Made by a program: the position numbers and the translations under genes
The notes under the pieces: model-generated
Database searches by the model: none
What the model was told of the DNA's origin: nothing
What the model saw: the letters and a program-made list of their open reading frames with translations, nothing else
From: Arthrobacter sp. S41
GTDB taxonomy: Bacteria; Actinomycetota; Actinomycetes; Actinomycetales; Micrococcaceae
Assembly (NCBI RefSeq): GCF_004320535.1
Contig: NZ_SIHY01000001.1
Coordinates: forward strand, 1,922,001-1,986,000
Direction: 5' to 3'
DNA length: 64,000 nt
Part shown: in pieces, positions 1 through 16,416 of the stretch
How positions within the stretch are numbered: the first letter of the stretch is position 1
Layout: the number at the start of each line of letters is the position of its first letter

Positions 1-1549
1 CGATGATCGTAAACGGCACCGCCGAAAGAATGGCTGCTTGCTGCAGCGCTTCGAGCCCGCCCACCAGGAGCAGCACAATCGCGCAGACACCGGTTAGCAA
101 TCCCCACACTGTCAGCACCGGTCGCTTTGGATACATGTTGCCGCCCGAGGTCAATGTTCCCAGGACATAGGTGTTGGAATCTGCACCAGTAATAAAGAAC
201 AAAACAACGAGTATCACGGTAAAAGCTGAGGTAACCGCAGGCATCGGTAGCTCCGCGAGCATTGCGAAGAACGTACTGTTCGTATCAGTGAGCGTAGCTT
301 GTCCAATCCCTGTGGAACCGTTCATTTCTTGGTGAATAGCAGTACCACCAAAAATGCTGAACCAAATGCTGAAAACTAGCGAGGGAACACCCATTACGGC
401 GATAACAAACTCTCGGATCGTGCGCCCCTTGGAAATGCGTGCCAAGAAAATTCCGACGAATGCGCCCCAGCTCAGCCACCAAGCCATCATAAAGTAAGTC
501 CACCACTGCATCCATTGCAGATCTTCCGCATTCGACGGAGTCAGTAGCGCGACGGCAGGAAATTCTGCAAGGAACTGACCCACTGATCGGAAGTAGATAT
601 TGCTGATGAAGCCCGTGGGACCAGATATAAGAACAAATACACCGATCACAGCAGCACCAATCATGGTGCCTTGGCTGAGCCATTTAATACCTTTACCCAC
701 ACCAGACAAGGCAGAGAGAGTGAAGATAATGGTGACACCGGCGATGATGACGATCTTCACGAAGATGTCCGTCGGAACACCGAACAGTCGGTTAAAACCT
801 TCGGCAATTTGTGAAGCTCCCAATCCCAAGGAAGTTGTTGTGCCGAACAATGTAGCAAGGACGGTAAACACGTCAATAGCCTTGCCCAACAGTCCGTCCA
901 TGGACTTGCCAAGTACGGGTCGCAGCATCACCGACACGAGACCGGAATTTCCACGCCGATGAGTTGAGTAGGCAATAGCTAGCCCAAAGACACCAAACAA
1001 GGCCCAAGCGTTCGGCCCCCAGTCGAAGTAAGAGAACTGCAGCGCTAGCACCGCGGCATCCATGGTTCCTGGCTCAGCTCGGTTATGTGGAGGATCCATG
1101 AAGTGACTCATGGGCTCGGCGGCACCATAACTGATCAATCCGATACCCATCACGGCCCCTAGAATCATTGCGATCCAGGCCCATGTGGAGAATTCTGGAC
1201 GGTCTTTGTCCTTCCCGAGCCGGATGCCGCCGAAACGCGAAAAGGCTAAGAACAGCATCAGTAAAATGCAGCCCAGTGTGACCAGCAGATAGCTCCAGCC
1301 TATATATTGCGCGGACCAGGTGGAGGCAGTGGACATTAGTCCATTGAGCTGCTCCGGTGCGAATGCTGCCCAGAGCACGAATACCGCAACTAGTACTAGG
1401 GAGATGACCAGCACGCTGCCCGGACCATAAAGTTTCTGATATACCTTTTTGGATTCGATCCGGCTACTGGCTCGGCGAAGCTCACCGCCGGTCAGCGTGG
1501 GCCCTCCACGAGGGCCTTGGCCCTGATTCTCATCGATGTCCGTATTCAT
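1..1549 (-). CDS. BCCT-family (betaine/choline/carnitine) transporter, partial
   Basis: A polytopic membrane protein of at least 516 residues whose C-terminus lies beyond the left edge. The family moves trimethylammonium or other betaine-like zwitterions with Na+ or H+. Family hallmarks are visible: GIGLISYGAAEP near residue 110, a Trp-rich segment around WWTYFMMAWWLSWG, then FLARISKGRTIREF. The ATG at 1547-1549 follows AAGGAG. It lies 45 bp downstream of the reductase fusion on the same strand, so the two are probably co-transcribed. In this context it probably imports the substrate of the adjacent oxidative pathway, which would then carry a fixed positive charge; osmoprotectant uptake is the alternative. 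Confidence 0.93.
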   Translation of the reverse strand, partial: MNTDIDENQGQGPRGGPTLTGGELRRASSRIESKKVYQKLYGPGSVLVISLVLVAVFVLWAAFAPEQLNGLMSTASTWSAQYIGWSYLLVTLGCILLMLFLAFSRFGGIRLGKDKDRPEFSTWAWIAMILGAVMGIGLISYGAAEPMSHFMDPPHNRAEPGTMDAAVLALQFSYFDWGPNAWALFGVFGLAIAYSTHRRGNSGLVSVMLRPVLGKSMDGLLGKAIDVFTVLATLFGTTTSLGLGASQIAEGFNRLFGVPTDIFVKIVIIAGVTIIFTLSALSGVGKGIKWLSQGTMIGAAVIGVFVLISGPTGFISNIYFRSVGQFLAEFPAVALLTPSNAEDLQWMQWWTYFMMAWWLSWGAFVGIFLARISKGRTIREFVIAVMGVPSLVFSIWFSIFGGTAIHQEMNGSTGIGQATLTDTNSTFFAMLAELPMPAVTSAFTVILVVLFFITGADSNTYVLGTLTSGGNMYPKRPVLTVWGLLTGVCAIVLLLVGGLEALQQAAILSAVPFTII

Positions 1550-1594
1550 GTCTCTGGCACTCCTTAAAATTGGTGGAGCCTTCTGATTGCTGTT

Positions 1595-2569
1595 TTAGAG
1601 AGCTTGCAATTCGGCACCGTCGAAGAACCGACCAGCCTTGTAGATCATGGGTTCCAGCTCCGCGACCTCCGAGTGCTTGACCTTCGCAATAAATACGGTG
1701 TGGGTTTTGGCTTGGAAACGTTCCTTGATCTCGGCCTCGATTGAAGCGGCTGAGCCATCGAGCAGTGGGCTACCGTCCGGACCTTCATGCCACTGCAGGT
1801 CAGCAAATTTGTCGTCCCCCTTGGAGGCGAAGACACCGATCGTTTCGCGCTGATCGTTGCTCATGATGTTGATTCCCAAATGCGTGGATTTGAATAGCGA
1901 CGCATAGGTACTGGTCGTCTTCTGTACGCAGACGAGTACCAGAGGCGGTTCTAACGAAACCGAAACGTAGGAATTTGCGGCCAGTCCTCGTGGCTTTCCA
2001 CATTCGTCTTTGGTGGTTACTACGGTCACCCCAGTGATGAACTGACGGTTGAAGCCTTTGAGCGCGGCCAGGTCGGGGACTCCGCTCAGATCATCTACCA
2101 CCACGCCATTTTCGGCGGACTCGAATGCCGATTTTAGTGACGGGACTCCGACGTCTTCCAATAATTCGCTCTGATCCCAAGTCACTTCTTCGGAAATAAT
2201 CTTTCCCTCTTTGACCTTCATGAGATTTGAACCGCGAGTCTCAACGCTATTTCCGGTGGCAGGTACGCCTTGAAGGTCATTGGTGAAGGTTCCGTTGGTA
2301 CGCCAGAAAATCGCGATTGACTCTTTGCTTTCATCCACCAATAGGTGATCGATGGTGGTGACCAGATCCGGGAATGCTTCGCGAACAGTCAGGATGTCCT
2401 GTTTCAGCGCCTGAGCGGTCGAGATGTTCTTGGACTTGTTGCTGATGCGCTGGAAGTCAGGATGGAAAACATTGTCGAGCGAATCAACGTGGCCACGATC
2501 CCATGCTGCCTCCCATGCGGTGAGCAGTGATTCTTTGACTTGCTGGAGAGAATAATTGGTTTGTTGCAT
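1595..2569 (-). CDS. SnoaL-like domain fused to flavin reductase domain
   Basis: 324 residues in two parts. Residues about 6-143 look like a SnoaL-like/ester-cyclase NTF2-fold domain (WEAAWDRG, FWRTNGTF, GNSVETRGSNL). Residues about 165-322 form an FMN-binding split-barrel flavin reductase of the HpaC/RutF type (FITGVTVVTT, GLAANSYVSVSLEPPLV). Such reductases supply FMNH2 to a separate monooxygenase; the likely partner is the luciferase-like enzyme at 7154-8200 across the divergent promoter. Fusion to a SnoaL domain is unusual; the extra domain might act on the unstable oxygenated product or be a scaffold (inference). There is no Shine-Dalgarno, and a TAGCAT box sits 7 nt before the ATG, so the mRNA may be leaderless. 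Confidence 0.88.
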   Translation of the reverse strand: MQQTNYSLQQVKESLLTAWEAAWDRGHVDSLDNVFHPDFQRISNKSKNISTAQALKQDILTVREAFPDLVTTIDHLLVDESKESIAIFWRTNGTFTNDLQGVPATGNSVETRGSNLMKVKEGKIISEEVTWDQSELLEDVGVPSLKSAFESAENGVVVDDLSGVPDLAALKGFNRQFITGVTVVTTKDECGKPRGLAANSYVSVSLEPPLVLVCVQKTTSTYASLFKSTHLGINIMSNDQRETIGVFASKGDDKFADLQWHEGPDGSPLLDGSAASIEAEIKERFQAKTHTVFIAKVKHSEVAELEPMIYKAGRFFDGAELQAL

Positions 2570-2604
2570 GCATGAAATGCTAGCAAAGCGTGTGACAGAG
2601 TCAA
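2570..2604 (-). promoter_or_regulatory. Leaderless promoter of the reductase-BCCT operon
   Basis: Read on the minus strand, TTGACT (2604-2599) is followed after 16 bp by TAGCAT (2582-2577), then 7 nt to the ATG at 2569. The spacing puts the transcription start at or next to the start codon, and no ribosome-binding site is present. A TTGCATGCAT operator-like repeat covers the start codon. Confidence 0.6.
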
Positions 2605-2650
2605 CAGATTTTCAAATTTCTTTTAAATTCAGCGAATTATCAAGGATTGC

Positions 2651-2685
2651 TTGCATGCAAGAGGAACTATGGTTACTGTTCTTGT
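2651..2685 (+). promoter_or_regulatory. Leaderless promoter of the GntR-led catabolic operon
   Basis: TTGCAT (2651-2656) and TACTGT (2674-2679) are separated by 17 bp, and the ATG at 2686 follows 6 nt later. The only purine-rich run (GAGGAA, 2661-2666) is too far from the ATG to act as a Shine-Dalgarno. The -35 lies within the central operator repeat, so repressor bound there would block polymerase. Confidence 0.55.
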
Positions 2686-3381
2686 ATGCAACAGAGTTCA
2701 GTAGCTGAGGTAAAACGCAGCGTCGCAACAGATACGTCACTTTTGAGTCGGCTGCGCCAAATGATCGTTACCGGTGCAGTGATGCCCGGAGCGCTTTTGG
2801 CGGAAACGGCACTGGCTCAAGAGTTTGAGGTCAGCCGCACTCCGATTCGAGAAGCGCTCAAGCAGCTAGAGCGTGAAGGACTAGTAGAGGTACGCGCCAG
2901 GGTCGGAACCTTCGTTCGAAAGCCAACACAGCGCGAGATCCACGAGATGTTTGAGCTCAAAGAATCGTTCGAAGGTCTTGCTGCCGGCCTTTTGGCTAAG
3001 CGTGGGCCAGTTCCTGAACTTGAACATCTCAAAGAGAATGTCGCTCGCAGCCAGCAAGCAGTGGAACACGGTGACGCACAAGAGTATTCGCAACTAGTGC
3101 ACGACTTCCACAGCACTTTGGTTGCTGGAGCCGACAACAGAAAACTCTCCGAGCACTACGACTTGCTAATGAATCAGCTTGCCTACCAGCGAATAGTCTC
3201 CCAGACGCTAAGCCAGCCTGGCCGTCTGCAAAATTCGGTCAAGGAGCATCAAGCAATTATCGATGCCATCAGTTCCAAGGACCCGCTGGCCGCTGAACTC
3301 GTGATGCGTAGACATGTTGCCGCTTCAAGCCAATTAGCAGCCATCGCCGCCTTGAAAGAGGATGAAGGACAGTCCAACTAG
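2686..3381 (+). CDS. GntR-family transcriptional regulator, FCD subfamily
   Basis: 231 residues from the ATG at 2686. A TTG at 2647 is in frame but would add a Cys-rich tail that does not look like this family. Residues 15-80 form the winged helix (SRTPIREALKQLEREGLV then GTFVRKP); residues about 85-215 are the all-helical FCD ligand domain with His residues (HDFH, EHQAII, RRH) suited to metal or carboxylate binding. It is first in an operon with six catabolic genes (36-bp gap to the next) and divergent from the reductase/BCCT genes. It probably represses both arms until a pathway intermediate binds. Confidence 0.92.
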   Translation: MQQSSVAEVKRSVATDTSLLSRLRQMIVTGAVMPGALLAETALAQEFEVSRTPIREALKQLEREGLVEVRARVGTFVRKPTQREIHEMFELKESFEGLAAGLLAKRGPVPELEHLKENVARSQQAVEHGDAQEYSQLVHDFHSTLVAGADNRKLSEHYDLLMNQLAYQRIVSQTLSQPGRLQNSVKEHQAIIDAISSKDPLAAELVMRRHVAASSQLAAIAALKEDEGQSN

Positions 3382-3416
3382 CCCCATCCTCAGATCATCA
3401 CGCAAAGGATTATCAA

Positions 3417-4085
3417 ATGAACTCTCCCTTGGTCGTTTCAACCCAGCCCGTTGATTTGAGCCGCCGTTCAACGCTCACGGATTATTCGGATCTTGCAACT
3501 GCCACCGGACTTCGCAAAATCACAAGCACCGCAGAAGAGGTTCCACACCCGCAGCTAGGAACGATCACTCGCGCTACAGCTACAGCCGTAATCGCTAACC
3601 CTTGGCTCGGCACCAACACGGAACATGACTTGTCCGAACGCACTGAAGCGATCGCTCCGCTACTGGCCAAATTGCTCTCCGACCGGCTTCTGTATTCGCT
3701 CGGCGGTGCCGAACAAATACAAGCCTTCGGCAAAGCCGCCATTGTGGGCACTGCGGGCGAATTGGAGCACGCGGGAGCGCTGATCCATACTCCGTTCTTC
3801 GGCAATTTGTTGCGCGAAGCCTTACAAGGAACCTCAATCATCTGCTTCGTTGACGGTCGCGGGATACCTGGCGAAACCTTGCGAGTACCCATGTGGCACA
3901 AGACCGCAGCGGCAACCCGCACCCACTACCAGACCATCGAGATCTCTTTGCCTGATGCGCCGCATGCCGCAGAGATCGCCGTCGTCGCCGCAGCATCCGG
4001 TGGGCCACGACCCCACGCTCGCATCGGCGACAGAAGCACAGACCGCCCCATTACCTCTGCAATTCTGAAAGGAATCAAACTATGA
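3417..4085 (+). CDS. Amino acid synthesis (DUF1185/AA_synth) family protein, copy 1
   Basis: 222 residues with an N-terminal stretch of about 30 residues absent from its neighbour. The core motif AFGKAAIVG (103-111) with GELEH (114-118) and ALIHT (121-125) is shared with the protein encoded next. The family name is historical; no firm biochemical role is known to me. Conserved Glu and His residues (E117, H118, H124) suggest a hydrolytic or metal-assisted function (inference). AAAGGA precedes the ATG. Its stop overlaps the next start (ATGA), implying coupled translation and perhaps a hetero-oligomer. Confidence 0.82.
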   Translation: MNSPLVVSTQPVDLSRRSTLTDYSDLATATGLRKITSTAEEVPHPQLGTITRATATAVIANPWLGTNTEHDLSERTEAIAPLLAKLLSDRLLYSLGGAEQIQAFGKAAIVGTAGELEHAGALIHTPFFGNLLREALQGTSIICFVDGRGIPGETLRVPMWHKTAAATRTHYQTIEISLPDAPHAAEIAVVAAASGGPRPHARIGDRSTDRPITSAILKGIKL

Positions 4086-4633
4086 ACTACCGCAAGCTAG
4101 TGACAATCGTTGAAGAAATCAGCACCGAAGGTGGCCAAGCTGTAGACCCTGTGGCACGCGTGGCCATCGTCGCTGCAGTTATCGATAACCCATGGGCGGG
4201 CCAAGGATTCGTCAAAGATCTGAACCCAGGCATTGACTCTGTGGCATCGAGCCTCGGCGCACTGTTGGCGCCTCGGGTTATTGAAGCTCTAGGTGCGCCG
4301 CTCGAAGCCTACGGGAAGGCAGCAATCGTCGGGTTAGACGGCGAAATTGAGCATGGCTCAGCGCTTATCCACACTTTGAAATTCGGCAATCACTTCCGTG
4401 ACGCCGCTAAGGCAACGACCTTACTTCCCGCTGTTGAAAAGCGTGGGCCGGCAGGAGTCCAGTTCGATATTCCGCTCAAGCACTTCACGGACGCAACCAT
4501 CCGTTCGCACCACCAGAGCATTGAAGTGAAGATCTCCGACGCTCCACATTCGGGCGAAATTCTGATCGCTCTAGCCGGTGCCACCCGAGGACGTCCTCAA
4601 GAACGCCTCGCCGCACTGAGCACCGAGCAGTAG
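4082..4633 (+). CDS. Amino acid synthesis (DUF1185/AA_synth) family protein, copy 2
   Basis: 183 residues, close to the usual length of the family. It begins directly with the core (KLVTIVEE) and carries AYGKAAIVG (76-84), GEIEH (87-91), ALIHT (94-98) and FGN. It is clearly paralogous to the preceding gene and overlaps it by 4 bp. Two different coupled copies suggest they act as a pair. Located between the regulator and the alpha/beta hydrolase, it is likely part of the same degradative pathway, possibly processing a ring-opened amide; this is inferred only from context. Confidence 0.85.
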   Translation: MNYRKLVTIVEEISTEGGQAVDPVARVAIVAAVIDNPWAGQGFVKDLNPGIDSVASSLGALLAPRVIEALGAPLEAYGKAAIVGLDGEIEHGSALIHTLKFGNHFRDAAKATTLLPAVEKRGPAGVQFDIPLKHFTDATIRSHHQSIEVKISDAPHSGEILIALAGATRGRPQERLAALSTEQ

Positions 4634-4668
4634 TCCCCGGCAATATTCGACCACGGAGCAAAGCACCG

Positions 4669-5421
4669 ATGAAAAGCACCAAACGACCGCAGGTTCTCTT
4701 ACTGCACGGCGTGGGGTTAGACCGCACGATGTGGGACCCACTGCGCGAACTTCTGGTTCATGATTCGAATGCAATTGACTTGCCAGGTCACGGCGCGCAG
4801 CCCCCGCTACGTTCCGCGCAGGGTTTGAAGAGCCTGGCGGAGGATGTCCTTGAGCGGTTCGAAACCGTGGAACCAGTTCATTTGGTGGGATTCTCTCTAG
4901 GCGCACTGATCGCGCAACACATCGCGCGATTCGCACCCGAGCGAGTACTCACGCTGAGCGCCATAAATTCGGTCTGCCAACGTACCGAGGAAGAGGCAGC
5001 CTCCGTCGAACAACGATTGGCAACAGCTGGTGTGAATTTTGCTCAGGGTGTGGATCGCGCTATTGAGCGGTGGTTCCCGGCAGGCGAAACCCAAGTTGAT
5101 CAGCAGATCATCAAGGGAATTCGAACAACGATGTCCGGCAATGACCTCGAATCATATCTTCACGCCTACGCGGTCTTTGCCCACGGGGACCGTGAGATTT
5201 CCGGTGAACTAGCTCAAATAAAGGCGCCGACGCTAGCAATCACCGGCGAACAAGATCCAGGTTCAACGCCGCAGATGTCCCGCCGGTTGGCCGACGCTGT
5301 GCCCAACTCACGGCTGCGAATCATCGAAGGCGCCAGACATATGCTTCCGGTCGAGAACCCGGCGGCTCTAGCTTTTGAACTAAATAGCTTTTTCAGCGAC
5401 ATTGAAGGGGAACACGCATGA
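4669..5421 (+). CDS. Alpha/beta-fold hydrolase
   Basis: 250 residues, single-domain alpha/beta hydrolase resembling 3-oxoadipate enol-lactonases, RutD and E-2-(acetamidomethylene)succinate hydrolases. Visible are the oxyanion-hole segment LLHGVGLD (11-18), the nucleophile elbow GFSLG with Ser76, the acid region TGEQDPG and the catalytic His in GARHMLP near the C-terminus. No signal peptide, so cytoplasmic. The stop overlaps the aldehyde dehydrogenase start by 4 bp. In trigonelline and vitamin B6 ring-cleavage pathways an enzyme of this fold hydrolyses the enamide released after ring opening; a similar role fits here, but the substrate cannot be read from sequence. Confidence 0.9.
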   Translation: MKSTKRPQVLLLHGVGLDRTMWDPLRELLVHDSNAIDLPGHGAQPPLRSAQGLKSLAEDVLERFETVEPVHLVGFSLGALIAQHIARFAPERVLTLSAINSVCQRTEEEAASVEQRLATAGVNFAQGVDRAIERWFPAGETQVDQQIIKGIRTTMSGNDLESYLHAYAVFAHGDREISGELAQIKAPTLAITGEQDPGSTPQMSRRLADAVPNSRLRIIEGARHMLPVENPAALAFELNSFFSDIEGEHA

Positions 5422-6902
5422 GTGAGCAGTATCTGCATTTCATCAACGGTGAGCATGTAGCTCCCAGCGAAGATCGTTTCTTCACCAGCACCAACCCGGC
5501 AACACTTGAAGAACTCTACGAGGTTGCCCGCGGCAATGCGCACGATGTGGATCGGGCTGTCAAAGCCGCACACAAGGCATTCACTTCTACCGCGTGGAGT
5601 TCGCTGAGCGCCACAGCGCGTGGACACCTACTTCGCCGACTTGGTGATCTCATTGGAGAGAACGCCGAGAAGCTAGCACGCTACGAATCGCTAGATAACG
5701 GTAAGCTACTGCGCGAAATGCGCGGTCAGCTGGCCACTTTGCCCGAGTATTTCTATTACTACGCCGGCTTAGCGGACAAGGTCCAAGGATCTCAGATTCC
5801 GTCAATGAACCCGGCCATTTTGAACTACACCCAGCGTGAGGCATTAGGCGTCGTTGGTGCCATTACGCCGTGGAATTCGCCACTGACGTTGACCACTTCT
5901 AAGATTGCCCCTGCTCTGGCCGCAGGCAATACCGTGGTCATCAAACCCAGTGAATACACTTCGCGTACCGTGCTGTTGCTGGCAGAACTAGCGGACCAAG
6001 CTGGTTTCCCGCCGGGAGTCGTGAATGTGGTGACCGGCTACGGAGCCGAAGCTGGCGCCGCATTGGTCTCGCACCCGCTATTAGCGAAGATCTCCTTTAC
6101 CGGTTCCACCGTAACCGGTTCTCGGATTGCTTCCGAAGCCGCCAGTCGTTTCATCGGTTGCACATTGGAATTGGGTGGCAAGAGCCCCAACATCATCTTC
6201 GATGACGCCAACGTCGCCAATGCAGCTATGGGAGTAGTTGCAGGAATCTACGCTGCGGCCGGCCAAACCTGCATCGCAGGAAGTCGCGTCTTCGCACATA
6301 AGTCGGTGTACGACGAGCTACTTGAACGAGTTACCGAAAGAGCGAAGTCCATCGTGATCGGCGACCCGCTGAATGACGCTACCGAGCTCGGGCCGCTGGC
6401 CTTCGCCGATCAGCTGAATAAGGTGTCTGGCTACGTGAAGATCGGCGCCGATGAAGGTGCCACCGTCTTGGCTGGCGGAACGCGTCCTGAGGGCCTAGAA
6501 CTGCCAGGGTACTTCTTCTCACCGACTGTACTCACCGATGTTAATAACAACATGCGTGTGGTGCGCGAGGAAATCTTTGGCCCCGTGGCCGCGATCATGC
6601 CATTCGAAAACGAAGATGAACTACTGGGCATGGCCAACGACACTGAATATGGTCTGGCCGCAGGAGTTTGGACCCAAAATTTGGCACGCGCCCATCGCAT
6701 GGCTCGCCGACTTGAGGCCGGCACCATCTGGGTCAACACCTATCGGGCGATGTCTCCGATGTCCCCTCGTCAGGGCTTCAAGAGCTCCGGTGTTGGCATC
6801 GAACATGGCCTGGAATCTATGAACGAATACACCCGTCTGAAGAGCGTCTGGATCAATACCGATGAATCCCCGGTAGCTGACCCATTCGTCATGCGCGGCT
6901 AA
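5418..6902 (+). CDS. NAD(P)-dependent aldehyde dehydrogenase
   Basis: 494 residues, full length for the family. Catalytic residues are in place: Asn153 (TPWNSP), Lys176 (IKPSE), Glu251 (LELGGKSP) and the nucleophile Cys285 (GQTCIAG). It oxidises an aldehyde to the acid in the cytoplasm, probably the aldehyde released by ring cleavage or a later semialdehyde. ATGA overlap with the hydrolase and a 14-bp gap to the tautomerase place it firmly in the operon. Only one such enzyme is present, whereas the pyridine and trigonelline pathways use two (ring-opened aldehyde, then succinate semialdehyde), so the second may be encoded elsewhere. Confidence 0.95.
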   Translation: MSEQYLHFINGEHVAPSEDRFFTSTNPATLEELYEVARGNAHDVDRAVKAAHKAFTSTAWSSLSATARGHLLRRLGDLIGENAEKLARYESLDNGKLLREMRGQLATLPEYFYYYAGLADKVQGSQIPSMNPAILNYTQREALGVVGAITPWNSPLTLTTSKIAPALAAGNTVVIKPSEYTSRTVLLLAELADQAGFPPGVVNVVTGYGAEAGAALVSHPLLAKISFTGSTVTGSRIASEAASRFIGCTLELGGKSPNIIFDDANVANAAMGVVAGIYAAAGQTCIAGSRVFAHKSVYDELLERVTERAKSIVIGDPLNDATELGPLAFADQLNKVSGYVKIGADEGATVLAGGTRPEGLELPGYFFSPTVLTDVNNNMRVVREEIFGPVAAIMPFENEDELLGMANDTEYGLAAGVWTQNLARAHRMARRLEAGTIWVNTYRAMSPMSPRQGFKSSGVGIEHGLESMNEYTRLKSVWINTDESPVADPFVMRG

Positions 6903-6916
6903 CGAAGGAGCAACAA

Positions 6917-7123
6917 ATGCCACTCATTGATGTATCCATCGCAAAAGGTCGTTCCCCACAGCAGTTGCGGGCCTTCATCAAAGCCTTGCACGAAGCGGCC
7001 GAAAACACCGTGGACGCTGCCAGCGAGAACATCACCGTCATTGTGCGCGAAGTCGAGCATGAGCATTGGTCACGGACCAACACCACCATCGCCGAACGCA
7101 ATAACACCCAGACTCCTGCCTAA
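6917..7123 (+). CDS. 4-oxalocrotonate tautomerase-like protein
   Basis: 68 residues. After Met removal the N-terminus is Pro, the catalytic base of the family. Aligned without gaps to classical 4-oxalocrotonate tautomerase, Pro1 and Arg11 are retained, but position 39 is Thr rather than Arg and position 50 is Trp rather than Phe. A changed substrate or reaction is therefore likely. It starts after AAGGAG. It sits between the aldehyde dehydrogenase and the monooxygenase, so it may tautomerise an enol or enamine intermediate. Confidence 0.88.
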   Translation: MPLIDVSIAKGRSPQQLRAFIKALHEAAENTVDAASENITVIVREVEHEHWSRTNTTIAERNNTQTPA

Positions 7124-7153
7124 GGGCTCCCGTTAACCGAAAGAAGGATAGAC

Positions 7154-8200
7154 ATGCGTTTTTCACTGTTCATCCATATGGAACGCTACGACGACTCGAT
7201 CAGCCACGAACAGCATTTTGAGAACCTCGTTGAACTGACACAGTTGGCCGAAGCCGGCGGCTTTTCCACGGTGTGGATCGGTGAGCACCACTCCATGGAG
7301 TACACGGTCTCCCCTAGCCCGATCCCACAGTTGGCCTATCTTGCAGCCAAAACTTCCACCATTCGGTTGGGTGCAGGCACCATTATCGCCCCATTCTGGA
7401 CTCCTATTCGAGCCGCCGGAGAACTCGCACTGCTAGATATTATTAGCAACGGACGAGCCGAGTTGGGCGTGGCGCGTGGTGCCTACCAGTTCGAATTTGA
7501 TCGGATGACCGACGGCATGAAGGCCACCGACGGTGGCCAGGCCATGCAGGAACTCATCCCTGCGGTGAAAAATCTCTGGGAGGGCGACTACGCCCATAAC
7601 GGCGAAGTGTGGCAGTTCCCAACCTCCACCTCGGTGCCGAAGCCCAAGCAGAAGCAGATTCCGGTCTGGGTCGCCGCCCGAAGTCCGGAGTCCCACGATT
7701 ACGCCGTGGCCAACGGTTGCCATGTCATGGTGACGCCGCTAATGAAGGGGGATGACGAAGTCGAGGCTCTGGTCGAGAAGTACGAGAGTGCCATCGCGGC
7801 ACACCCGGAGGTCGAGCAGCGTCCCGACATAATGGTCCTGCGCCACACCTACCTGCACTCCGCCGAAGAGCCAGAGGCATGGCGCCCGGCGGCCGAAGGC
7901 ATCCAGAAGTTCTACCGTACCTTTGATGCCGTCTTCGGCAACAAGGTGGCGCCTATCAACGGATTCATTGCCCCGAGTTCTGAAGAAAAGTTTGCGGGAC
8001 GCGAAGAATTCACTACCGAGTCGCTACATGAGACAGCAATGATCGGCACTCCCGATGTAGTTATTAACCGCTTGCGACGCTATGAAGAACTAGGCGTGAG
8101 CGAATACAGCTTCTGGAGCGACAACGCCATGAGCCACGAAGAAAAGAAGCGATCCTTGCAGATCTTCATCGATGAAGTAGTGCCTAAGTTCGCGCCGTAA
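7154..8200 (+). CDS. Luciferase-like (LLM) flavin-dependent monooxygenase
   Basis: 348 residues forming a bacterial-luciferase-type TIM barrel: MRFSLFIHMER at the start, WIGEHHSMEYTVSPSP (about 38-53), RLGAGTIIAPFW, and the flavin-site segment ELGVARGAYQFEFD. These enzymes use FMNH2 supplied by a separate reductase, here probably the SnoaL fusion at 1595-2569. It is the last gene of the operon and has a good Shine-Dalgarno (GAAGGA). In TgnA, PyrA and RutA such enzymes open an N-heterocycle; Baeyer-Villiger or desulfonation chemistry are alternatives within the superfamily. Confidence 0.92.
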   Translation: MRFSLFIHMERYDDSISHEQHFENLVELTQLAEAGGFSTVWIGEHHSMEYTVSPSPIPQLAYLAAKTSTIRLGAGTIIAPFWTPIRAAGELALLDIISNGRAELGVARGAYQFEFDRMTDGMKATDGGQAMQELIPAVKNLWEGDYAHNGEVWQFPTSTSVPKPKQKQIPVWVAARSPESHDYAVANGCHVMVTPLMKGDDEVEALVEKYESAIAAHPEVEQRPDIMVLRHTYLHSAEEPEAWRPAAEGIQKFYRTFDAVFGNKVAPINGFIAPSSEEKFAGREEFTTESLHETAMIGTPDVVINRLRRYEELGVSEYSFWSDNAMSHEEKKRSLQIFIDEVVPKFAP

Positions 8201-11799: not shown

Positions 11800-14700
11800 T
11801 TATTTCACCGCCAGTCTCAAGAACGTGACTGAATAGGCTGGAACCTCATAATCAAGACCATGAGCTTCGGCCTTCAATTTGAACTCACGGGGCGCCACTT
11901 TAGTGGGGTCCTGCTTGGTGTTCTGAGCTTCTGGCGCAGCGACCAGTTCGGTAACCTTGACCACGGAACCAACCTTGACGTCGTCTACCGCAATCTTGGT
12001 CTGCGAAACCGTGGCCGTTGGGTTCACCAGTTTGACGATCAGCTCATTTTTCTTGGTATCGCGGGTAACCACTTGGTAGAGCGGTTTGGCTGATGGCTCG
12101 GTGTACTCAAACTGGAATTCACCATCGAGGTAGAGCTTGATGGTGTTTCCATCGACCACAATCTTGACCTTGTAATCCTTGCCGGTTTCCAAGGTGGTAT
12201 TCGGTCCAGCGGCGACCTCGCCTTGACGAGCCGAGTCGGCACGTTCCAGCACAGAGCGGGTATTGCCCCAACCGCCAAGATTCCACCAGTAGAACTGATC
12301 TTCCGCCCCGGCCGCGAAGCCGATCAAGAAGCCTTCTTTCCCAGCTTCCTTTCGTGCGGTCAGCTCCATTGTGTAGTTTTTCCAGTCCTTGTCATAGGCA
12401 CCGGTGATCAGGCTACGTGCGTCCTCCACACCGGTATCGGACTGCACATAACGCCCATCAGCAATTGCCCAGTTCCCGCGTTGAGCTTCCCAGTTCGCAT
12501 CACTGGTGAAGTCATCGCTGAACAGGGTTTCCCCTGTACCGTTCTCAGTCACCTGCAGGTTGTCGTAGGAAGTTTTCGTCTGCCAACTACTCAGGAAAAC
12601 ACCACCGGAGAGATCGGGGGCGGTGGAAGTTTTGCCGGTAAGGGTCGAAGGCACCACCTGTTCACCGACGTTGTTCATCCAGAGTTTCTGGTTGTAGTAG
12701 TTAGCCGAACCCCACGACTGGTCGTTGTCGAACCACATCATGTCTGGTGCCCACTGAACATAGTCCTCGTTGGCAAACATCGGCGCATAAGAGGCTAGCT
12801 TCACGACGTCTGAATTGCGTTCCAATCCAGTCATATATGCAGCTTCGGAAAGCGCATTGGCAAAGGTGTTACCACGTGAGGCATATTCGCCTAGGAACAC
12901 CTCCGGACCTTGACGGTCGTAGGAATCATACCGTTGGTCATTGCCTAAGAACCATGAGGGATCGTTGTAATAGTGTTCATCAACCATGTCCACGCCCTGA
13001 GCCTTGTTAAACTTCCACAGCTCATCAAAACGGGTTCCGGTGTCATCGGGGCCGCTATTGGAGATGATGGTGATCTGGGGATATTTGGCAGCGATCGCGT
13101 CACGGAATTTCGGGAAGTTAGCTTCAAAAGTCTTGGTGACTTCTTCATTGCCCAACCCGATGTACTTCAAATCGAACGGCTTGGGGTGTCCGAGCTGTGC
13201 ACGCTTAGCACCCCACGTTGTCGTGGTGTCTCCGTTAGCAAATTCGATCAAGTCCAAGGTGTCTTGTACCCAACGATCAATGCGCGGCTGATCTGTCATC
13301 TCAGCAATATTTGAACCACAGCCGTTGGCGCCTACAGAAACCACCGGTAACGCGGTGGCACCCAAGTCCTCAGCCCATTTCAGATATTCCAGGTAGCCAA
13401 TTCCGTAAGTCTGGTTATAGCCCCAGAAGTTCCAGTTGGTCGGCCGGCTCTCCACGGCACCAATGGTCTCTTTCCATTGGAAGGTGCGTTGACGGTCCTT
13501 TCCATCGGACTGCAAGTACGTATCAAAAGTACCCACGTTGGTCACGCAGCCACCCGGGAAACGAAGGAAGCTCGGATTCAGGTCCGCCACTTTTTCGGCT
13601 AGGTCCTTGCGCAGCACGGACTTACCATTCACTGGTCCAACCCACGTATCTTGAGGGAATAGCGAAATCATATCCAAGTTCACACTCCCCGGTGTATCGG
13701 CCAGCAGTTCTAGTCGACCAGTGTCAACGGTGGATAGTGCAGTCATCGTCGCGCTATATTTTTTCCATTGATCGTTGCCGTCCACGGTGATGGTGGTGGA
13801 TCCAAACACTGCGGAACCGTCAGCATCGGTGAGCTTTATTTCCAGTTTTTGATCCTTCTGTGCTCGGGCAAAAACACTGAAGTCGTACTTTGCTCCCTTC
13901 TTCAGCGCCATTCCTTTGTTAAAGGAAAGGTTCTGCACACCATCACCCTTGGCCTTGGCATTGAGTTGTAGATATGCGCGGTTGGAGTCGTTGAGCCACT
14001 GATCTCGTTCAGAACTCACTTGGTTCCCGGCGGTACCTACTGCTTTCCATCCGGTCAGTGCTGTGAAGTCCTTATTATCTGAGCTGTTGAACTCGAAAGA
14101 ACGGTTGCGCACCATCTCGGCGTACAGTCCGCCGTCAGCAGCGTAGTTGATATCTTCATAAAACGCTCCGTACATTGTGTCGCTGATTTCGTGGCTGGTG
14201 CCATCGCCGTCAATCGACAGTTCTTGCTGCCCAACGGTGGCTGAACCAAGACTAAAACTTGCGGCTTTAGCTTTGGATCCTAGACGCAGGGAACCATTTT
14301 CATGGCGCACTACCCAGGCCGAATCTTCATCGCTGGCTCCGGTCAAGCGTAGATAGCTTTTTCCGCCACCAGCATCCACCAAACGCCAAGACGTTGTGGA
14401 GCCCTTGGTTAATTGGAGTTTCCCGTTGCGAACGTCCATGTTGCCTGCTGGGGTAGTGAGCACCAGTGGGTGGTGGTCGTCGCTGGTCACGCCATCTGCG
14501 GCCTGCGAGGTAAAGCGCAGTACCGATTTTGGTCGCGTTGACTCCAGCTTTAGCCGTTGTTGTTTATCGGTAGTGACATAGCTTTGGGCACCTGTGGCGC
14601 TCAGCGTAAACGGCTCGGTAGGAACCAGATCTGCAGGGCCAGCCTCGTTAAGCCAGACGCTGTCGAAGGACGCTGTATGTGCGGTCCCATCTTGGGCTGC

Positions 14701-16416
14701 CAATGCGTAAAGCCCTACCTTGGTAGCGTTCCAATCCAAATTAAAACTTGCGGCTTTTGCCCATTGCCCTTGGGAATCCCCGTAGTAAACAGTGATTTCT
14801 TTACCTTTACGATCCAAACGAAGCCACTCGGTAGTGGATCCGGGGCGCGCGGTGAACTGCGAACCATACACTCCGGCTGACTCGGCAGCACTTTCAATCA
14901 CTACTGGTCCGTTGGGGGCGCTGGATACATGGGCCAGGCCAGCTCGTACATAGTTATCGAAGTCTTTCCATGCCAGCAGCCCGGCGCCTTGGAAGTCTTG
15001 CGAGACCGGTGCAGTAAGGTGGGTGGCCACCGAGAAGTCACCGGAGGGAACGTCGAGCATGAAGAGGTTCTTGGCGTCATTCGAATCTTGCCAAGTGTCC
15101 CCTCGCTGAGAGGTCAGCTTCAGCGCCGAATCCTCCAGCTTCCACGCACCAGCCTGCTCATTGAGGATTGAGAATCGCTGATTAAGCTCCGTTGAATCAA
15201 ACTCTTCGCTGAAGGTACCATCGGGAAGTTCCGGGTCAGGACCCGGAACTACCGGACCTGGAGGCTCTTCAACTTCGCCCGGTGGGTAGGCTGCAATCAG
15301 GGCCTGTTGTTCGTCGGCGGTAATCGGCAAAACAGTTCCATGACGTGGGCTCGTAGGCAGTTTTGCATCGGGAACGCTCGTCCAGTCGCCTCCGGCGAGA
15401 TCATCAGTTTCAAAAACCATATAACCCTTGCCACCGTGGTACGAGGGCTGGTCAATCATCAGATACCAGTTGTCGTCTGTCAGCGAGGGGAACATGGTTG
15501 GTCCTTCACCGGATGTGAAAGTCCCGCCCCATGGATTAGGTTGGCCCACACCGATGTGCTCGGTGACCATATCCCAACCGTCCCCTTCACTGACCCCTTG
15601 GGTCCGCAGGAGTTCCGATGAAGATTCCATGCGCACACTCATGTCGCCTTCATCCTTGGTCAGACGATAAAAAGTATCACCGACCTCAGCCACTGTTGAA
15701 TCAATCATTCCTAGGCCCGGACCTTGACGTTCGTCAATCCACACCTTTGGTTCTGAAAAATCCTTAAAGTCTTTGGTCGTTGAATACATCATGCGCTGAT
15801 AGGAGTTCTTAATATCGCGCTGATCTGCTGGAACATCATCCGGATAAAGCGCTGAGGCCCAATACACGATGTATTGCTCGGTGACCGGATCCCAGTGCGC
15901 CTCAGGAGCCCACAAATTGCCTGAATTATCTGAGGCCACTTTGACCTCGCGCTGCTGTGACCAGTTGATCAGATCAGATGATTCCCAGATCATCAACGAG
16001 TGGCTACCGGTTTCTTGGGCGTCGCCAAAACTGCCACCCCCGTACATCTTAAGATCGGTAGCCAGTAGGTAGTATTTGGAACCGTCTTGGGATCGAATCA
16101 AGAATGGATCTCGAAGCCCTTTGGTACCCAGTGTTGACTCCAAAATGGGTTTGCCGTCGTTGAGCGTGTACCAGCTATTGGGGTCGTTCTTTTGCGAGAC
16201 GGCCATATGTATTTTCTCGCCATCATCGGTGCTCTCACCGGTGAAATAGGGGAAAACATAGGCCGCGTAATCACGATCGGCTTCATTGCCAGGTGTTGTT
16301 GTGAGCGCAATATTCGGCCTGCTCACATGCGGAACCGCGGCGAGTGCCGAGGCAGGGAAAGACAGAGAAACGAGCAGTGCTAACGGCACGGCCCATCGTT
16401 GACGAGGATGCATCAC
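11800..16416 (-). CDS. Secreted GH43-GH51 fusion, putative arabinan-degrading alpha-L-arabinofuranosidase
   Basis: 1538 residues. A Sec signal peptide (1-26, ASALA|AV) is followed by a GH43-like five-bladed propeller (about 30-375; LRDPF at 101, WAPEAHW at 169), a Pro-rich linker (378-398), a beta-sandwich (about 400-590), a small beta-rich module (about 600-728) and a GH51 arabinofuranosidase (about 730-1535). In the GH51 part the acid/base is Glu1091 (GLGNEE) and the nucleophile Glu1177 (FLGEY). A CBM4/9-like insert (about 768-920) and a jelly-roll insert (about 1296-1482) interrupt it. No LPXTG anchor is seen, so it is probably released. The start is GTG at 16416 (followed by ATG), 9 nt after GGAGG. 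It lies downstream of the furanose importer genes. Confidence 0.92.
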   Translation of the reverse strand: MMHPRQRWAVPLALLVSLSFPASALAAVPHVSRPNIALTTTPGNEADRDYAAYVFPYFTGESTDDGEKIHMAVSQKNDPNSWYTLNDGKPILESTLGTKGLRDPFLIRSQDGSKYYLLATDLKMYGGGSFGDAQETGSHSLMIWESSDLINWSQQREVKVASDNSGNLWAPEAHWDPVTEQYIVYWASALYPDDVPADQRDIKNSYQRMMYSTTKDFKDFSEPKVWIDERQGPGLGMIDSTVAEVGDTFYRLTKDEGDMSVRMESSSELLRTQGVSEGDGWDMVTEHIGVGQPNPWGGTFTSGEGPTMFPSLTDDNWYLMIDQPSYHGGKGYMVFETDDLAGGDWTSVPDAKLPTSPRHGTVLPITADEQQALIAAYPPGEVEEPPGPVVPGPDPELPDGTFSEEFDSTELNQRFSILNEQAGAWKLEDSALKLTSQRGDTWQDSNDAKNLFMLDVPSGDFSVATHLTAPVSQDFQGAGLLAWKDFDNYVRAGLAHVSSAPNGPVVIESAAESAGVYGSQFTARPGSTTEWLRLDRKGKEITVYYGDSQGQWAKAASFNLDWNATKVGLYALAAQDGTAHTASFDSVWLNEAGPADLVPTEPFTLSATGAQSYVTTDKQQRLKLESTRPKSVLRFTSQAADGVTSDDHHPLVLTTPAGNMDVRNGKLQLTKGSTTSWRLVDAGGGKSYLRLTGASDEDSAWVVRHENGSLRLGSKAKAASFSLGSATVGQQELSIDGDGTSHEISDTMYGAFYEDINYAADGGLYAEMVRNRSFEFNSSDNKDFTALTGWKAVGTAGNQVSSERDQWLNDSNRAYLQLNAKAKGDGVQNLSFNKGMALKKGAKYDFSVFARAQKDQKLEIKLTDADGSAVFGSTTITVDGNDQWKKYSATMTALSTVDTGRLELLADTPGSVNLDMISLFPQDTWVGPVNGKSVLRKDLAEKVADLNPSFLRFPGGCVTNVGTFDTYLQSDGKDRQRTFQWKETIGAVESRPTNWNFWGYNQTYGIGYLEYLKWAEDLGATALPVVSVGANGCGSNIAEMTDQPRIDRWVQDTLDLIEFANGDTTTTWGAKRAQLGHPKPFDLKYIGLGNEEVTKTFEANFPKFRDAIAAKYPQITIISNSGPDDTGTRFDELWKFNKAQGVDMVDEHYYNDPSWFLGNDQRYDSYDRQGPEVFLGEYASRGNTFANALSEAAYMTGLERNSDVVKLASYAPMFANEDYVQWAPDMMWFDNDQSWGSANYYNQKLWMNNVGEQVVPSTLTGKTSTAPDLSGGVFLSSWQTKTSYDNLQVTENGTGETLFSDDFTSDANWEAQRGNWAIADGRYVQSDTGVEDARSLITGAYDKDWKNYTMELTARKEAGKEGFLIGFAAGAEDQFYWWNLGGWGNTRSVLERADSARQGEVAAGPNTTLETGKDYKVKIVVDGNTIKLYLDGEFQFEYTEPSAKPLYQVVTRDTKKNELIVKLVNPTATVSQTKIAVDDVKVGSVVKVTELVAAPEAQNTKQDPTKVAPREFKLKAEAHGLDYEVPAYSVTFLRLAVK

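Follow-up and report, generated by a model that had tools for sequence, protein, structure and literature searches.

What compound is broken down by the gene cluster at positions 1-8200 of the stretch analysed here (the window: 64,000 nucleotides of Arthrobacter sp. S41, C1:1922001-1986000)? The genome is 3.47 Mb and Glutamicibacter-like, and the nearest named relatives of the cluster's luciferase-like monooxygenase (LLM) are from Glutamicibacter (90-91% identity). Two divergent arms share one intergenic region. The minus arm encodes a SnoaL and flavin reductase fusion followed by a BCCT transporter; the plus arm encodes, in this order, a GntR/FCD regulator, two DUF1185 proteins, an alpha/beta hydrolase, an aldehyde dehydrogenase, a 4-OT-like tautomerase and the LLM. 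A sequence-only reading of this locus had proposed an undescribed pathway for an N-methylated or otherwise charged N-heterocycle. We observed parts, kinship, synteny, conserved catalytic residues and operator enrichment which together make it very likely that the cluster is an actinobacterial form of the Tgn-type catabolic cluster for trigonelline (N-methylnicotinate). To our knowledge, the characterised trigonelline pathway is proteobacterial.

The oxygenase provides the first line of evidence. In a tblastn search of plasmids, 425 records had an LLM match at E up to 1e-20 and an annotated tgnB was one among the 30 matches listed; the window LLM was 49.7% identical to this TgnB of Acinetobacter sp. 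PK01 over 100% of its length. In an LLM tree rebuilt without outgroups of very long branch, canonical TgnB (99/97) was the sister group of the window clade, which holds actinobacteria and Pseudomonas (95/89), and a third LLM type, found in rhizobia (100/100), fell outside both. Near-fixed positions, defined as at least 95% conserved per group, were compared among 77 sequences from actinobacteria, 34 from Pseudomonas and 8 canonical ones. The window clade and TgnB had 86 such positions in common and differed at 5, one of them a gap, and 25 of the 86 were not uniformly kept in two rhizobial sequences of the third type. The rhizobial type had been a candidate TgnB, an idea that the tree and the position test led us to abandon. 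By identity, sister-clade placement and near-fixed positions alike, the window LLM is what one expects of a TgnB orthologue.

All of the parts named in the sequence-only reading (transporter, flavin reductase, SnoaL domain, regulator, DUF1185 pair, hydrolase, dehydrogenase, tautomerase and LLM) were found, at or close to the positions given there:

2-1549, minus strand: BCCT-family transporter (PF02028, E 4.7e-165), cut by the window edge
1595-2569, minus strand: SnoaL-domain and flavin reductase fusion of 324 aa (PF07366 and PF01613), with a putative TgnA-like reductase role
2564-2573, unstranded: degenerate predicted operator, one mismatch to TTGCATGCAA, overlapping the reductase gene start codon (read from the sequence)
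2651-2660, unstranded: predicted operator palindrome TTGCATGCAA (motif scan)
2682-2691, plus strand: predicted operator TTGTATGCAA, which includes the likely GntR start codon and lies 31 bp from the 2651-2660 site
2686-3381, plus strand: GntR/FCD regulator (PF00392, PF07729)
3417-4085, plus strand: DUF1185 paralog a, TgnF-like (PF06684, E 3.9e-49), C-terminal RPHxRIGxR motif kept
4082-4633, plus strand: DUF1185 paralog b, TgnF-like (PF06684, E 5.1e-59), N-terminal and middle signature kept, without the C-terminal motif
4669-5421, plus strand: alpha/beta hydrolase, TgnD-like, 29% identical to its counterpart in the PK01 tgn locus
5418-6902, plus strand: aldehyde dehydrogenase, TgnC-like, 44% identical to annotated TgnC
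6917-7123, plus strand: 4-OT-like Pro-1 tautomerase (PF01361, E 5.5e-14)
7154-8200, plus strand: LLM, putative TgnB-type ring-cleaving oxygenase component (PF00296), 50% identical over 100% to annotated tgnB

The GntR gene most likely starts at the ATG at 2686 rather than the TTG at 2647, judging from the sequence. Scans for promoters and terminators yielded nothing above chance level, and an Rfam scan gave no match.

The partners of the LLM point the same way. The reductase half of the fusion was 41% identical to the annotated TgnA of PK01, but this reductase domain sits in another architecture: SnoaL is N-terminal in the window protein, whereas the Acinetobacter reductase has a C-terminal extension without a Pfam match. 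SnoaL and flavin reductase, listed earlier as separate parts, form one fused protein. The aldehyde dehydrogenase was closer to annotated TgnC (44%) than to the PK01 succinate semialdehyde dehydrogenase (SSADH; 35%), as expected of a TgnC, and its C285, E251 and N153 were invariant in 79/79 aligned sequences. The PK01 hydrolase does not itself carry a tgnD annotation, and a TgnD role for the window hydrolase is suggested mainly by synteny; residues S76, D196 and H224 of this serine hydrolase, along with some others, were invariant in 77/77 aligned sequences. TgnB kinship, conserved catalytic residues and the common predicted operator described below bear out the earlier proposal of a trigonelline-type, two-component ring-cleavage cluster.

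The same gene set recurs across actinobacteria. We examined 131 stretches, and 117 were left after three without an LLM and duplicates of LLM sequence were dropped; 78 of these were actinobacterial, and in 72 the sequence upstream of the LLM exceeded 7 kb. Genes were counted by tblastn because long antisense open reading frames (ORFs) made gene-order strings misleading, and the relatives include many close kin and are not independent. Aldehyde dehydrogenase, hydrolase, two DUF1185 genes, SnoaL and flavin reductase accompanied the LLM as a full set in 71/72 loci, each also being found in 71; GntR was present in 70, the tautomerase in 66, NUDIX in 6 and riboflavin kinase in 4. The association is far above chance, and the cassette is real, conserved and well defined. 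Its distribution is patchy: an LLM match was found in 11/18 genomes of the genus, 50/395 of the family and 3/396 of the phylum. If the assignment holds, the cassette would predict a patchy occurrence of trigonelline use in Glutamicibacter, Arthrobacter, Streptomyces, Mycolicibacterium, Nocardioides and others.

Two copies of the LLM departed from this pattern. One (L076, genome G026) is 91% identical to that of A. dokdonellae over residues 38-342 only, has no cluster neighbours within ~10 kb and is perhaps a relic; it was left out of the position test. The other, in Streptomyces samsunensis (L118), has a stop at codon 49 and looks broken. Riboflavin kinase and NUDIX genes were seen in some Arthrobacter clusters, and ribBA and NUDIX lie near the Pseudomonas citri LLM (L130 1019-3119); flavin supply may travel with the pathway.

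The sequence-only reading had counted the tautomerase, the SnoaL domain and the DUF1185 proteins as parts foreign to a tgn cluster. Scored in the same way, five canonical tgn loci (L015, L017-L020) had one DUF1185 gene, no SnoaL and no tautomerase, so that tautomerase, SnoaL and the second DUF1185 copy stand as additions. DUF1185 itself does not: TgnF is a homologue of the DUF1185 protein studied in PMC7913881, which states that TgnF stimulates TgnE, and the annotated Acinetobacter locus has one DUF1185 gene, so that the family is expected in a tgn cluster. The two window genes overlap by 4 bp, and each product shares 44% identity with its PK01 tgn counterpart, giving two copies of a TgnF-like protein.

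To compare the copies, 74 pairs were aligned with 12 rows of single proteins, of which 10 were true, distinct single copies; the remainder came from a paralog b of a truncated locus (L136) and from a Pseudomonas row present twice. Paralog a keeps the C-terminal single-copy features I203, G204, R206 and D209, with H200 in 84%. Paralog b keeps the N-terminal and middle features G17, V44, I51, S93, L99, A108, A111, D137 and S142, and Q replaces its last His in 99%. Both keep E90, H91, H97, R141 and H143 (paralog-b numbering). PMC2954203 describes the DUF1185 structures BB2672 and SPO0826 (2qtp, 3byq) as hexameric, with a cavity and with conserved histidines close to an interface. The window proteins belong to the same fold family, and the conserved histidines of the EH...H stretch are kept in both paralogs. 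Unlike these proteins, the window has two overlapping genes whose products have lost complementary sets of the single-copy features, from which we infer a hetero-oligomer with divided labour. Such a pair offers a handle on a family of still open function.

Architecture of the SnoaL and reductase genes varied among the 72 loci: 44 have them fused and 26 have them as separate neighbours, while in one (L077) the fusion is interrupted and one locus lacks them. In G. nicotianae (L080 4433-5452 = L077 14526-15545) the reductase half appears to be broken by an in-frame stop, or there is a sequencing error; the gene is a single open frame in L079 and L081. The window tautomerase has the family hallmarks (PF01361, Pro-1 and Arg-11), and P1, G10, R11, R17, H24, W50 and T56 were kept in 71/71 sequences. 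It was absent from six loci (L099, L100, L101, L111, L113 and L076) and is therefore not needed everywhere. An apparent fusion of tautomerase and aldehyde dehydrogenase in L071 was rejected as a wrong-frame ORF, inside which the tautomerase starts normally.

These additions could mean that the module acts on a different N-methylated or charged N-heterocycle, such as homarine, N-methylisonicotinate or a stachydrine-like compound, with the tautomerase and SnoaL handling an isomeric intermediate. The absence of tautomerase, SnoaL and a second DUF1185 from the five canonical loci would fit this, as would the position of the LLM in a sister clade of TgnB rather than in TgnB itself, and the existence of a related cluster type with a different transporter and regulator. 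Only 5 near-fixed differences separate the LLM from canonical TgnB, however, and for homarine PMC8269262 argues that TgnA/B is unlikely to act, for steric reasons. Genomes with the window-type LLM (40, covering 40 of 80 such loci) each held exactly one TgnB-like LLM, not two, and tgn-like partners share its neighbourhood in five Pseudomonas regions. We consider another heterocycle unlikely as the substrate, and the earlier proposal of an undescribed pathway for one is not upheld, given the few differences from TgnB and the Pseudomonas partners.

Pseudomonas allowed a closer look at these partners. Of 298 sampled genomes, 169 had a TgnB-like LLM match, five of them two; among the matches listed none exceeded 53% identity to Acinetobacter TgnB, and others scored lower. 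Membership in the window clade was checked for the 34 sequences of the position test and tree only. A single TgnB-like LLM per genome in the 40 genomes, together with this limited identity to Acinetobacter TgnB, points to the window-type LLM replacing TgnB rather than serving a second pathway, and a TgnB role is indicated for the TgnB-like LLM of the 169 genomes. DUF1185 was present in all 24 Pseudomonas genomes searched: 16 carry it on the contig of the LLM at a distance of 8-44 kb, 7 carry it on a different contig, and one has it 1.4 Mb from the LLM. In five regions with these genes near each other, DUF1185 (56-57% to PK01), hydrolase, aldehyde dehydrogenase and GntR were found in 5/5, CMD (77-79%), DUF1330 and an ABC transporter in 4/5, and SSADH (~70% to that of Acinetobacter) in 2/5. 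The Pseudomonas regions with the window-type LLM (L174-L180) have an LLM of the window clade (66-69% to that of the window), GntR, DUF1185, hydrolase and aldehyde dehydrogenase in common with the window cluster. They differ from it in having a single DUF1185 in the regions opened, a stand-alone reductase 31-33% identical to that of the window, and CMD, DUF1330 and the ABC transporter in most; SnoaL and tautomerase were not found in them, and their genes are more scattered.

Compared with the PK01 locus, which contains GntR, DUF1185, hydrolase, tgnA, tgnB, tgnC, a cytosine permease and SSADH, the window cluster has the LLM, flavin reductase, aldehyde dehydrogenase, alpha/beta hydrolase, DUF1185, GntR and a transporter in common. 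It differs in gene order, in having two DUF1185 genes rather than one and a BCCT rather than an NCS1 permease, and in the tautomerase between the aldehyde dehydrogenase and the LLM; unlike in Acinetobacter, no DUF1330 or CMD was found near the window cluster. A third kind of cluster, in Mesorhizobium 131-2-5 and Ensifer canadensis (L190, L191), also has an LLM, flavin reductase, aldehyde dehydrogenase, alpha/beta hydrolase and DUF1185. Its LLM is ~41% identical, its transporter is an ABC transporter of the polar amino-acid type and its regulator is a large helix-turn-helix protein. Taken together, the comparisons suggest that the cassette most likely encodes the known trigonelline pathway in variant form and not a novel pathway, with two DUF1185 genes, SnoaL, tautomerase and a BCCT or NCS1 transporter as lineage-wide differences.

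Several points weigh against a trigonelline assignment. The window LLM clade is sister to canonical TgnB and not nested within it, so that a substrate shift is possible. Identity is low for the hydrolase (29% to its PK01 counterpart) and for the transporter (36% to the BCCT of the canonical tgn locus of Thioclava). Because the third rhizobial cluster has the same enzyme set, the module could serve different substrates. The Pseudomonas neighbourhood argument is loose, since DUF1185 was distant or off-contig in 8/24 genomes. No SSADH (TgnE) was found beside the window cluster; SSADH adjoined 10/72 actinobacterial loci, and an 82% match to the SSADH of the A. dokdonellae cluster lies elsewhere in the S41 genome. 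Adjacency of SSADH is no strict criterion, because no SSADH is listed in the annotated parts of L017, L018 and L020. In a literature search covering part of the matching papers, no experiment on the window-type LLM clade was found. The parts consulted of two papers concern trigonelline-use genes among those absent from a Chryseobacterium (PMC11381245) and trigonelline measured in plants (PMC10346144); neither bears on the window genes.

LLM enzymes are functionally diverse, and no NCBIfam LLM model reached its cut-off among the matches listed, so that an unrelated substrate was also considered: desulfonation or oxidation of an alkanesulfonate, a lactone or pyridine proper. The SsuD model TIGR03565 scored 27.8 bits against a cut-off of 518.2, and the dimethylsulfone monooxygenase model scored 43.8 bits, both very weak. 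An LLM from Rhodococcus aetherivorans pN1 (L194) is only 27% identical to that of the window. Its neighbours are an amidohydrolase, an aldehyde dehydrogenase, a tautomerase, nicotinate phosphoribosyltransferase, FdhF/YdeP and a flavin reductase, a cluster which we take to be of the pyridine type, again with a tautomerase. An unrelated substrate is extremely improbable in our estimate.

Trigonelline, a zwitterion, is an osmolyte common in plants and in the sea, and BCCT carriers move fixed-charge zwitterions. The full BCCT gene extends past the window (L003 9912-11549, minus strand) and encodes 545 aa. BCCT carriers are commonly osmoprotective, and the best NCBIfam match of this one was the glycine betaine model NF047988; the transporter could thus be an osmolyte carrier that merely lies beside the cluster. 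The full protein scored 518.6 bits, well under the cut-off of 650. A gap of 45 bp separates the gene from the reductase gene, which has the same orientation, and BCCT (49/72 loci) and NCS1 permease (26/72) substitute for one another across loci, either being found in 70/72. An unrelated osmolyte carrier therefore seems quite improbable. For trigonelline, the Thioclava locus offers a canonical precedent of a BCCT.

The earlier placing of a BCCT and of a GntR regulator between two divergent arms agrees with the gene layout and with a predicted operator in the cluster promoters. The regulator is 56% identical to that of A. dokdonellae and matches the PK01 regulator over 58 residues only. A palindrome was first seen in the window and then tested in relatives. 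In 71 loci scored (1.38 Mb), TTGNATNCAA occurred 64 times, and 60 of the 64 were in cluster promoter zones (250 bases before to 30 after the match start of SnoaL, GntR, the first DUF1185 or the transporter). These zones make up 5% of the sequence, and 3.2 sites would be expected; the best of 47 other arrangements of the TTGNATNCAA letters reached 2. At least one site was present in 36/71 loci, and none in 35/71, including the Streptomyces and Mycolicibacterium loci scored. The 31-bp spacing of the window sites is repeated in L040, L042, L044, L045, L077 and L078, and an exact TTGNATNCAA stands at the place matching window 2564-2573 in L040, L042, L044 and L078. The outer two of the three window sites overlap start codons. 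Alone, the window count is weak (3 matches versus 0.48 expected; 3/100 shuffles reach as many). The predicted operator defines a testable regulon.

TTGYATGCAA has 4 distinct sites in the S41 genome, 2 of them in the cluster; one in the sepF/ftsZ region (gene names read from ORFs) was judged to be chance. A perfect TTGCATGCAA lies ~15 bp before another LLM oxidoreductase gene (L188 ~1959-1968, C2:564758), either as a possible second regulon member or by chance.

The order of steps is proposed by analogy with A. baylyi ADP1, whose trigonelline pathway was reportedly described by Perchat et al. in 2018. The BCCT would take up the zwitterion, and the reductase half of the fusion would supply reduced flavin to the LLM, which would open the ring (TgnA and TgnB roles). 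The aldehyde dehydrogenase would oxidise the ring-opened product (TgnC role), the alpha/beta hydrolase would release succinate semialdehyde, methylamine, formate and CO2 (TgnD role), and an SSADH encoded elsewhere would complete the carbon chain. The DUF1185 pair would act as a hetero-oligomer in the helper role of TgnF. GntR would repress both arms through the predicted TTGNATNCAA operators until substrate or an intermediate is present. The tautomerase perhaps isomerises an intermediate or decarboxylates 2-formylsuccinate, chemically a substituted malonate semialdehyde.

A more specific and rather doubtful proposal joins these roles: steps that proceed unaided in ADP1 would here be enzyme-catalysed. 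The Pro-1 tautomerase would isomerise the ring-opened intermediate, or would remove CO2 from 2-formylsuccinate to give succinate semialdehyde, a reaction like that of malonate semialdehyde decarboxylase on the analogous compound; SnoaL would act in ring-chain closure of the hydroxybutyrolactone; and the DUF1185 proteins would assemble into an obligate hetero-oligomer whose active sites are composite. If true, these sites would be the first defined catalytic role of the family.

The minus arm goes on to the left of the window (L003 5060-9836), with fdhD, an FdhF/YdeP-family oxidoreductase and a xanthine-type NCS2 permease, at gaps of 45 to 84 bp. The fdhD and FdhF/YdeP genes would fit formate disposal, and these Glutamicibacter neighbours may serve the pathway in that way. 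They were found in 7/117 stretches (not all long enough), namely the window and its closest relatives, and because of this restriction the neighbourhood may be mere synteny. An FdhF/YdeP gene lies near the canonical tgn locus of Pantoea too. Elsewhere in the window, a 1538-aa ORF (11800-16416, minus strand) resembles a secreted multi-domain glycoside hydrolase and reads as arabinofuranosidase-like from its sequence.

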